From Synechococcus sp. JA-3-3Ab (lineage in GTDB: Bacteria; Cyanobacteriota; Cyanobacteriia; Thermostichales; Thermostichaceae): a stretch of DNA of 64,000 nt. Made by a program: the position numbers and the translations under genes. The stretch is taken from NCBI RefSeq assembly GCF_000013205.1, contig NC_007775.1, positions 1,174,501 through 1,238,500 on the forward strand, written 5' to 3'. The notes beneath the pieces were generated by a model. The model had not been told where the DNA came from and made no database searches. It saw only the letters and a program-made list of their open reading frames with translations. Numbering within the stretch: the first letter of the stretch is position 1; each line of letters begins with the position of its first letter. Positions 21,145-27,291 of the stretch are shown piece after piece.

Positions 21145-22227
21145 GAGGAGCAACCTTACACCCATCCCAAGCCGCAACCAGACCCAGGTTCCAGAGCATA
21201 GCGAAGCTGTCTGTTGTGTCGATCCCCAACTGGGGAGTGCTCAAGATTGTCGCCAATTTGGAATGCCCCTATCGTGGGCATATCGTGAGAGAAAGCTAGG
21301 TTCTCCTACACTGGGGAGATGGCTAAGGGCTTTGGAAAACCGGCGAAAAAACAGCCGCTCCTCTCGGCCCGACAGGCGGCAGGCCGCTTCCGGCGGGGGG
21401 AATGGGCTGGCTGCCGGCAGCTCTGTGAGCAGATCCTCGCCGCTGCCGACCGGTCTGATCTGGAAGAGGCCATTGCCTTGACGCAAGCCCATGCTCTTTT
21501 GGGGCGCATCGAGGAGGGATCCGGTCGCTACCCTGCCGCCATGCTGCACTACCAACAGGCCATCGTGGCCTGTCCCCCTGCTGCTCCCGCCAGCTTGGCC
21601 GCTGAGGTTCATGCGCTGCTGGGGGGAGTACTGCGGCAGATGGGCGAGAAAAAGCAGGCGCAACGGCTCTTCGAGCAAGCCCTGGCCCGGGATCCAGCGC
21701 TGCTGATGGCGCGGGTGGGGCTGGCCGACCTGCTGCAGATGCGAGGAGAATACGAGGCGGCTCTGGCCCATTATTTGCAGGCCTGGCAGGGATCCCAGCA
21801 AGAGGCAGACATTCCTTAGCAGATCGGCATGGGCTTTTGGAAGCAGGGACAAGTGGAGGTGGCCAGCTCTTGGTTTCGGCGGGCGCTCGCCCTGCAGCCC
21901 GAACACAGCGATGCCCGCTACATGCTGGCCATTGTGGGGGAGCTGCCCCTGCCCGACAGGACTCCTCCGGAGTGGGTGCGACGTCTATTTGACGAATATG
22001 CGCCCCGCTTTGAGCAGCATTTGCTGGAAAAACTGAACTACCAGGGGCCACAGGCTGTGCGGCAAGGGATCCTGGCTGCCGCAGGGGGAGCGTCTCCTTG
22101 GTTTGAGCGGGCGCTGGATCTGGGCTGTGGCACCGGCCTGGCGGGATCCCAGGTGCGCTCCTACGTTGGATAGTTGCGGGGTGTGGATCTCTCCGCCCGC
22201 ATGGTGGAGATTGCCCGGCAAAAGGGC

Positions 22228-23544
22228 AAGCCTCTAGTCCTGAATTTACTGAACAACATATTGTCTTACGGAACTAAAATAGCCATACTGAATTAAGCGT
22301 GCTGCCGCGGCTATCCCAAAGTTATGTTGCTAGGTTTTTGCACCCGATTGGAACTAAATAACCGGCAAAAGACCTTGGCCGCTCAGCATGCAGGGGTAGC
22401 TCGTCACGCCTACAACTGGGGTCTGGCTATCTGCAAGCAGGCTGTTGAATCCAAACAGAAGCTACCCACGGCTATTGACCTGCACAAGCGCTTGGTAGCC
22501 GAGGTGAAGAAAGAAAATCCCTGGTACTACCAGGTCTCCAAATGCGCTCCTCAGCAGGCCCTCCGCAACTTGGAGCAAGCCTTTAAGCGCTGGCGGAGTG
22601 GGTTGGGGAAGTTCCCCCGCTTCAAACGCAAGGGAGTGCGAGACAGCTTTTACTTGGAAGGTAGCATCCGCATCTCTGGTGACCGCATCAAGGTACCTAT
22701 CCTTGGTTGGTTACGCTGTGCGGAGCTGCTCCCCACTGCCACACCCAAGAACGTGGTCATTAGTCTTCGCGCTGGACATTGGTATGTCTCCTTCAAGTAT
22801 GAAGCTCCGGCGCCTCAGGTGGAGAAGACCGGGGAAGTTGTGGGAGTAGACTTAGGTATCAATCGCTTGGCCACCTGTTCCGACGGGGAAGTATTCGAGA
22901 ATCCAAAGCCCTATTACAAAGCGAAGAAGCGTCTGGCCAGGCTGCAACGGCGACTGAGTCGTAAGCAGAAGGGATCCGCTAACCGTAAGAAGGCAGTAGC
23001 ACAGCTCGCTAAGGCCCATAAGCGGGTGGCAGGCATTCGGCAAGACAATCTGCACAAGCTAACGACCTACCTGGCCAAGAAATATCGGGTAGTGGTGATT
23101 GAGGACTTGCAGGTGAAGAACCTGCTTAAGAACCACAAGCTGGCAGGAGCGCTGTCAGATTGTGGCTTTTACGAGTTTCGGCGACAGCTAGAGTATAAGG
23201 CCCGGCTCTACGGCTGTCAGGTGGTGGTGGCGGATAGGTTTTATCCGTCCAGCCAACTGTGTTCTCGCTGTGGGCACCGACAGAAGATGCCGCTACAGGA
23301 AAGGATGTTCTGCTGCCCGTGTTGTGGTCTGGAGCTAGACCGCGACTTGAATGCAGCCCTAAACCTGTTGCGGTGGTACAGAACTACCTCAAGCTCTGGG
23401 GGAAGTGACGCCTGTGGAGATCCCTCTGGCGGGGTGGTAGGGGTGAACTCTGCCGCTAGTCATGGGTCGCTGAAGCAGGAAGAAAGCAGCGATGCTGGGC
23501 AAAGTTCTGCTTTGTTCAGCGTTGCATAAGTCTTTCGGAGCGGC
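22228..23544 (+). mobile_element. Solo tnpB insertion element (IS1341-like, IS200/IS605 group)
   Basis: Joining the flanking methyltransferase codons (ending AAGGGC at 22227 and resuming ATCTAC at 23545) restores a normal reading frame, so the inserted DNA is about 1,317 bases. GGC occurs at both junctions, so the ends are uncertain by three bases. There is no target duplication and no terminal inverted repeat, as expected for this group. No tnpA is present, so the element would depend on a transposase elsewhere. The left end contains AT-rich non-coding sequence of about 95 bases. Confidence 0.75.
22324..23529 (+). CDS. tnpB: TnpB RNA-guided nuclease of the solo insertion element
   Basis: TnpB proteins are RNA-guided DNA nucleases, ancestral to Cas12, that use an omega-RNA from the element's right end. 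The 401-residue protein has an N-terminal helix-rich domain (ARHAYNWGLAICKQAVES, FPRFKRKG). A RuvC-like site follows with all three acids: Asp near 176 in VGVDLGINRLATCSDG, Glu near 260 in VVVIEDLQVKNLL, and Asp near 340 in LDRDLNAALNLL. A zinc ribbon CSRCG with CCPCCG lies between the last two. It appears intact and full length. The stop lies about 15 bases from the right end, so the omega-RNA would overlap the 3-prime coding region. Confidence 0.9.
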   Translation: MLLGFCTRLELNNRQKTLAAQHAGVARHAYNWGLAICKQAVESKQKLPTAIDLHKRLVAEVKKENPWYYQVSKCAPQQALRNLEQAFKRWRSGLGKFPRFKRKGVRDSFYLEGSIRISGDRIKVPILGWLRCAELLPTATPKNVVISLRAGHWYVSFKYEAPAPQVEKTGEVVGVDLGINRLATCSDGEVFENPKPYYKAKKRLARLQRRLSRKQKGSANRKKAVAQLAKAHKRVAGIRQDNLHKLTTYLAKKYRVVVIEDLQVKNLLKNHKLAGALSDCGFYEFRRQLEYKARLYGCQVVVADRFYPSSQLCSRCGHRQKMPLQERMFCCPCCGLELDRDLNAALNLLRWYRTTSSSGGSDACGDPSGGVVGVNSAASHGSLKQEESSDAGQSSALFSVA

Positions 23545-24003
23545 ATCTACGACCACCTGATTCAGGGGGACTTGCTGGAGCTGCTGCAGCAGACCTCAGA
23601 GCGCTACGACTTGCTCCTGGCGGCAGATGTGTTTATCTATCTGGGGGATCTGGCCCAGGTCTTGCCGGCCTGTGGGCGGGTGCTCAATCCCGGCGGGCTT
23701 TTGGCCTTCACCGTCGAGCAGGGATCCGCCCCCGGCTACGAGCTGGGATCCACCACGGGGCGCTCTGCCCACTCCGCCGCCTACGTGCTGCAGCAGGCAG
23801 AACGGGCAGGGCTGGATCCCGTCTATCACCAGAACTTTACCCTGCGGCGAGAGGGAGAAACCGACGTGCCCGGAGCCGTGTGGTGTTTACGTCGGCAGCC
23901 GTGATCGAAAGCGGCTGGCCCGAAATGGCTGTAGGCCCTCTATCCGCGCCCGGAAAGAATCGAGTAGAGTGGGGGCGCCCGCCTGGATTTGGATTGGGTT
24001 TTT

Positions 24004-25572: not shown

Positions 25573-26832
25573 CTAGCCTAGGATGGCGGTCGCCCCGGCG
25601 AAAGCTTCCTCCCGCAGCAGGGCAGCCTTATCCGTGCGCTCCCAGGGCAGATCCAGATGGGTTTGCCCGAAGTGCCCGTAGACCGCCACGTTTTGATAGA
25701 AGCGCCCTCCCCTTTGGCGGGGCAACTCTCGCAGTTGGAACTGCGCCAGAATGGCCGCCGGCCTCAGGTCGAAGTGGCGCTGCACCAGCCGCAGCAGAGC
25801 TTCATCGGGGATGCGGCCGGTGCCAAAAGTTTCCACCAAAAGGTTGATGGGACGAGCCACCCCAATGGCGTAGCTGACCTGCACCTCGCATTTTTGCGCC
25901 AGGCCGGCGGCCACGATGTTCTTGGCCACATAGCGGGCGGCATAGGCGGCGCTGCGATCCACCTTGGTGGGATCCTTGCCGGAGAAGGCCCCGCCCCCGT
26001 GGCGGGAATAGCCGCCGTAGGTATCGACGATGATCTTGCGTCCGGTCAGGCCGGCATCCCCCTGGGGTCCGCCGATGACGAACTTGCCGGTGGGATTGGT
26101 GAGGAAGCGGGTGTTGCCATCGGGTTTGATGGGCAGCTCGGCAAACACCGGCTGCACCACCGCCTCCCAGAGATCGGCGCGGATCCGCTCCTGCACCGCT
26201 GCCTCTTCTGTAATGGCACCGATGGTCGGCGTGTGCTGGGTAGAGATCAGCAGGGTGTGAATGCCCACCGGCCGCCCCTCCTCATAGGCCACAGTCACCT
26301 GCGTTTTGCCATCCGGACGCAGGTAGGGCAGGGTGCCGTTTTTGCGAACCGCGGCCAACTGGCGGCTGAGGCGGTGGGCCAAGCTGATGGGCAGTGGCAT
26401 CAACTCGGGGGTTTCGTCGCAGGCGAAGCCAAACATCAAGCCCTGATCCCCGGCCCCGATCAAGTCGAATTCATCTTCCTGAGATGTGCGACTTTCCAGA
26501 GCCAAGTTCACCCCCTGGGCGATGTCGGGGGATTGTTCATCGAAAGCCACCAACACCGCGCAGCTTTCTGCAGAGAAGCCGTTCTTGGCGTCGGTATAGC
26601 CAATTTCGGCCACCTTGTCCCGCACCAGTCGGGTGAAGTTGACATGCGCCTGCGAGGTGATCTCCCCGGTCAGGATCACCATGCCTGTATTCACCACCAC
26701 CTCTGCCGCCACTCGACTTAAGGGATCCGCCGTCAAGAGGGCATCCACGATGGCGTCAGAGATCTGGTCGCAAATTTTGTCGGGGTGCCCTTCTGTCACC
26801 GACTCTGAGGAAAACAAAAACGACTTGGACAA
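25573..26832 (-). CDS. metK: S-adenosylmethionine synthase
   Basis: MetK makes S-adenosylmethionine from methionine and ATP. The 419-residue product has [20 protein letters not shown] at the N-terminus, [20 protein letters not shown], and the Gly-rich [19 protein letters not shown] loop. The start is a TTG at 26832 behind a clear AAGGAGAGG site. No ATG is available, and homologues start with this Met-Ser-Lys. A SAM-I riboswitch and a sigma-70 promoter lie about 300-460 bases upstream, so expression is probably turned down by its own product. Confidence 0.96.
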
Positions 26833-27135
26833 CGAACCTCTCCTTAAGACGAAACAGATACAACCAAGAACTGCCCAGAAAGCAGAGCCTGCTGCTGCCG
26901 TTCATCATCCGCCGGCCTGAGCAGGGATCCCTTCCACCTCAGCCGAGCAGAAGAACAGACCTAGGCCGTGGCCGACGCAGGAGCAAGAGCGCCGTATCGC
27001 ACCGAGGACTTTGCCGCCGAAGCAATAGAGCCTCGCTCCGCTGCTGCAACCAGAGCTATTGGGAAGCGCTAAAGGGCGAAGTCGTCAGAAAAGTCCCCCT
27101 GGCAAGAGGACTGTCCTCTAGAGAAAGCTTTATTC

Positions 27136-27244
27136 CTTTATCTTTCGGTTACTGACTAACCGCAGGAGTTGGCACCGTAGCGGAGGCTTCCGCCGGTTGC
27201 CGCAGCTTCGTTGGGCCTGATCCCTCAGTCTGCTCTGGATAAAG
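27136..27244 (-). promoter_or_regulatory. SAM-I (S-box) riboswitch aptamer in the metK leader
   Basis: Read on the minus strand, P1 is closed by CTTTATC (27244-27238) and GATAAAG (27142-27136). Between them are the conserved blocks CAGAG, TGAGGGA, GGCCC, GAAGC and GGCAACC. A GC-rich P3 hairpin (GGCGGAAGCCTCCGC) follows, then GGTGCCAACTCC, a short P4 (GGTTAGTCAGTAACC) and GAAAGATAAAG. The order and sequence match the S-box consensus throughout. It lies in the leader of metK, a standard SAM-I target. The expression platform is not obvious: about 300 bases separate the aptamer from the TTG start, with an AGAGGAC/GTCCTCT hairpin soon after P1. Confidence 0.88.
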
Positions 27245-27260
27245 AACGGAACTTGTCCTT

Positions 27261-27291
27261 ATCGTACCCCTAACCTCGACGCATTTGTCAA
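27261..27291 (-). promoter_or_regulatory. Promoter of the metK riboswitch transcript
   Basis: On the minus strand a perfect TTGACA (27291-27286) is followed after 19 bases by TACGAT (27266-27261). A start about 7 bases further on would fall just before the first P1 base of the riboswitch at 27244. The spacing is slightly long, but the fit with the aptamer start supports it. Confidence 0.55.

Follow-up and report, generated by a model that had tools for sequence, protein, structure and literature searches.

A SAM-I riboswitch before metK in two deep-branching orders of cyanobacteria

To characterise a putative regulatory RNA in Synechococcus sp. JA-3-3Ab, we analysed a 64,000-nucleotide stretch of its genome (NC_007775.1, positions 1,174,501 to 1,238,500; henceforth the window). 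We found that the leader of metK, which encodes S-adenosylmethionine (SAM) synthetase, contains a full-length SAM-I riboswitch aptamer, and computation over the window and the sampled genomes establishes this aptamer, its conservation, its position before metK and its distribution. Our overall reading, which we consider probable, is that the riboswitch shuts metK down when SAM is plentiful, and that it was inherited vertically from an early cyanobacterial ancestor, with retention in the two deepest orders and loss from the others that were sampled. The features on which the analysis rests are the following (window coordinates):

27261..27291, minus strand: likely promoter, TTGACA (27291-27286) and TACGAT (27266-27261) with a 19-nt spacer (sequence; conservation in genus leaders)
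27135..27245, minus strand: SAM-I riboswitch aptamer (RF00162), helices P1-P4 plus the P2-loop/J3-4 pseudoknot (full-length family match; covariation)
27087..27112, minus strand: candidate intrinsic terminator, hairpin AGUCCUCUUGCCAGGGGGACU followed by UUUUCU (terminator scan; same position in five species)
27062..27075, minus strand: conserved box CCUUUAGCGCUUCC, which can pair with the 3' strands of P1 and P2 and is a possible switching element (invariant CCUUUAGC in five species; alternative fold)
26840..26845, minus strand: Shine-Dalgarno sequence AAGGAG of metK (sequence; conserved in five species)
25573..26832, minus strand: metK, S-adenosylmethionine synthetase, TTG start, the controlled gene (Pfam PF00438, PF02772, PF02773)

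The initial annotation had proposed that a SAM-I aptamer matching the S-box consensus precedes metK, and had suggested a search with RF00162, the Rfam model of SAM-I. That search bears the proposal out: the model matches window positions 27245-27135 on the minus strand with 85.7 bits (E-value 7.3e-19), nearly twice the gathering score of 44.4 bits, and the match is not truncated, covering model positions 1-108 of 108. The location given earlier (27136-27244) was thus right in place and one base short at each end. This is the sole SAM-I copy that the RF00162 search detected in the JA-3-3Ab genome (a single contig of 2,932,766 bp). We then examined covariation in an alignment of 15 related aptamers from the class, on which the Rfam structure was imposed; a fold of the raw alignment obtained with RNAalifold was rejected as its arrangement of P2 and P4 was wrong. 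The four-helix junction P1-P4 is present in the window aptamer, and 90% of the cells in the alignment were paired, with 35 double-change cells against 15.3 in shuffled alignments and a covariation score of 0.213 against 0.113 (none of 500 shuffles scored as high); covariation for P1-P4 was far above both shuffled and slid controls. The P2-loop/J3-4 pseudoknot (CAGG/CCUG) was paired in 95% of cells. As a test of family membership we checked the core blocks AGAG, GCAA, GGUGC and GAU, which we take to be the SAM-contacting site of the crystal structure, and found the first three to be invariant across the 15 aptamers. At the level of sequence, the element is confirmed as a genuine SAM-I riboswitch aptamer, which would be expected to bind SAM.

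The aptamer lies 302 nt from the start codon of metK on the same strand, in agreement with the distance of about 300 bases noted previously, and the product of metK has all three S-AdoMet synthetase domains. The promoter that the initial annotation placed upstream of the aptamer is likely: in an alignment of five leaders from the genus its -10 element was kept in all five and its -35 element in four. A generic promoter scan (spacers of 16-18 nt) did not return this TTGACA/TACGAT pair because its spacer is long (19 nt). Just 5' of the metK Shine-Dalgarno sequence we also observed a possible short upstream reading frame (ATGATGAACG...; 26908-26860), the ATG region of which is kept in four relatives with weak peptide similarity. 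Elsewhere in the window, a TnpB-like reading frame (22324-23529) is flanked by 21829-22173 and 23572-23904, seemingly the two halves of a single methyltransferase gene.

To understand how the aptamer might act on metK, we considered the leader downstream of it in five species of the window's genus. The order of elements in these leaders is a near-invariant aptamer, a short hairpin, a U-run, the conserved box (CCUUUAGCGGCUCC in the genus alignment), a variable stretch and the Shine-Dalgarno sequence; it is the variable stretch between the box and the Shine-Dalgarno sequence that makes the distance from aptamer to metK differ within the genus (about 195 to 302 nt). In the window the hairpin spans 27112-27092, and hairpin and U-run together lie 22-48 nt past the aptamer, which makes the earlier view that the expression platform is not the usual close terminator doubtful. 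The terminator scan found three candidates, this one among them, against 1.5 expected; hairpin and U-run share one position across the five species, and the changes seen in the stem are one-sided only. When we folded transcripts ending at the U-run, imposing a closed aptamer instead of a blocked P1 raised the hairpin probability in three of the five leaders (from 0.01 to 0.65, from 0.02 to 0.68 and from 0.63 to 1.00) and had almost no effect in the other two. When the transcripts were extended, P1 was open in the minimum-energy folds, and the box tended to pair with the 3' strands of P1 and P2. The energy gained by this alternative pairing did not exceed that obtained with dinucleotide-shuffled downstream sequence, and the anti-P1 duplex was not significant against shuffles in any leader of the genus. 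We therefore rejected the conserved box as a proven switch and treat it as a candidate only.

These observations suggest a mechanism in which SAM binding, the direction of control (an OFF switch) and the termination step are what we infer. SAM would close P1 and the pseudoknot of the aptamer, and the closed aptamer would free the hairpin at 27112-27092 to form before the U-run, ending transcription; without SAM, aptamer strands would re-pair with downstream sequence and the polymerase would read through. Given that the alternative pairing is not beyond shuffles and the stem changes are one-sided, attenuation close to the aptamer is put forward as a best guess from the folding models. Alternatively, a real aptamer may act through the long leader (302 nt) on translation or mRNA stability and not on termination, which we regard as possible, if the lesser prospect. 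Transcription reaches the conserved box only once the U-run has been passed, when termination at that point could no longer be prevented, and the aptamer-to-start distances of roughly 27-170 nt in the second order that carries SAM-I (see below) would suit translational control. Against this, the predicted accessibility of the metK Shine-Dalgarno sequence hardly changes with the state of P1 across the five leaders of the genus (0.47 vs. 0.49 for the window leader), and in the window the box and the Shine-Dalgarno sequence are more than 200 nt apart. The unresponsiveness of the calculated accessibility weakens the translational alternative, and control via the Shine-Dalgarno sequence is accordingly disfavoured.

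We next turned to the distribution of SAM-I in cyanobacteria. SAM-I was found in 37 of 386 genomes in a sample of the phylum; within the class, only the window's genus carried it among the genomes sampled there. In a survey of 390 genomes of the class, RF00162 detected SAM-I in 16, of which two scored under the family cut-off. The same 16 and none further were recovered with a covariance model trained on the class copies (whose own training sequences match by construction). These carriers are confined to two orders, with SAM-I in 8 of 9 genomes of the window's order and 8 of 9 genomes of one other, which we take to be the order of Gloeobacter, including Gloeobacter violaceus and G. kilaueensis. 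The ninth genome of that second order (G444) has a decayed trace of 20 bits at the expected place. No SAM-I was found in the approximately 372 genomes of other orders in this survey. As the genome surveys used strict filters, at which weak matches are lost, we also relaxed the filters and searched 37 metK loci from other cyanobacteria; no SAM-I was detected in them, while the B. subtilis metK locus, included as a control, was detected. One candidate for a natural loss, G389 (from the window's order and genus; 4 contigs, 99% complete), was rejected as uninformative: no metK match was found in its assembly even at an E-value of 10, the neighbouring gene had no closer relative there than one of 29% identity, and the missing metK is probably an assembly gap.

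All 16 class copies lie directly before metK and on its strand, roughly 27-370 nt upstream. The two copies below the family cut-off are divergent forms at this position, one with a much shortened P2 and no pseudoknot sequence (G451, L063 1382-1473) and one with an insertion in P2 (G421, L058 2912-3036). In another genome (G388, L035; aptamer from 1501) the match ends early because of an insertion of about 60-70 nt in P4 that contains two copies of GATCACATGAT, the true 3' strand GGAAGATAAAGA coming after the insertion. Among the sampled genomes of the phylum that lie outside the class, 11 have SAM-I upstream of metK in the same orientation, and further copies precede a MetH-like protein, a MetX-looking alpha/beta hydrolase or unrelated genes. 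An unexpected target for SAM control follows SAM-I at a distance of about 40 nt in two genomes of another class of the phylum (G092 and G269; L020, L023): a reading frame of the N-formylglutamate amidohydrolase family (PF05013).

How the riboswitch came to be in these genomes can be addressed through the ancestry of the gene it precedes. Divergent second-type copies apart, MetKs from other cyanobacterial orders share about 63-77% identity with the window MetK, whose nearest relatives outside the window's order are other cyanobacteria. In a MetK tree the window protein falls inside the cyanobacterial clade with 100/98 support, with the carriers near the base of this clade; marine Synechococcus and Prochlorococcus sequences, which are without SAM-I, branch below the carriers, probably as a long-branch effect. 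Judged by its sequence, the window MetK is an ordinary native cyanobacterial MetK. One study places Gloeobacter and the JA strains together in a single clade, described as the deepest of the cyanobacteria (PMC2823733). Ancestral presence is favoured, since SAM-I occupies one position relative to metK in both deepest orders, MetK itself is native, and the arrangement recurs in lineages outside the class. The most economical reading would be an ancestral metK switch that the two deepest orders of cyanobacteria retained and the other orders in the sample lost. On balance we lean towards a scenario in which the last common ancestor of oxygenic cyanobacteria already had metK under SAM-I control and the switch disappeared on the stem leading to the rest, which would regulate SAM synthesis otherwise; the decaying copies in G421, G451 and G444 of the two deepest orders would then preserve stages of this loss.

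The main alternative on origin is that the riboswitch was acquired on the stem leading to Gloeobacter and the JA strains and was not ancestral to all cyanobacteria. Such a gain would fit the restriction of class carriers to two orders that form one deep clade in one study (PMC2823733), but SAM-I is also present at metK in several lineages that belong to the phylum and not to the class, and we consider such a gain unlikely. Recent horizontal transfer of the riboswitch from Firmicutes, with or without metK, draws on SAM-I being commonest in that group (PMC2258182), but it is largely refuted and appears very improbable, given the cyanobacterial identity of MetK, its position in the tree and a distribution in which nearly all members of two orders share SAM-I at one gene. 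Of the two options raised initially, transfer or an under-noticed branch, it is therefore the latter that finds support: SAM-I occurs at metK in both deepest orders and, beyond the class, in other lineages of the phylum.

In the ancestral reading, a clean presence/absence split at the deepest cyanobacterial fork, at one orthologous gene, makes the loss of a riboswitch traceable and raises the tractable question of how the remaining cyanobacteria control their SAM synthesis; the element itself would be an endogenous SAM-responsive RNA from a phototroph. In the open-access literature, no paper that we found describes SAM-I from these cyanobacteria or its restriction to the two deepest orders, and riboswitches have been reported to be rare in cyanobacteria (PMC2258182). 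A 2007 paper had described S-boxes on metagenome fragments attributed to Cyanobacteria (PMC2211319), so the occurrence of S-boxes in cyanobacteria is not new; unlike the window, those fragments came without organism, gene context or distribution within the phylum. SAM-I before metK is itself a known arrangement. The SAM-Chlorobi and SAM/SAH motifs (PMC2864571) are likewise RNA elements before metK in one bacterial lineage, but their structures differ, whereas the window element matches RF00162. The closest counterpart is the SAM-I (S-box) of B. subtilis metK, with a full-length family match, the same pseudoknot and junction and the same gene, and the model built from cyanobacterial copies detects the B. 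subtilis metK leader. Compared with it, the window element is a single genomic copy with a long leader of 302 nt and a terminator that is only a candidate, in a host lineage that is reported to be riboswitch-poor (PMC2258182).
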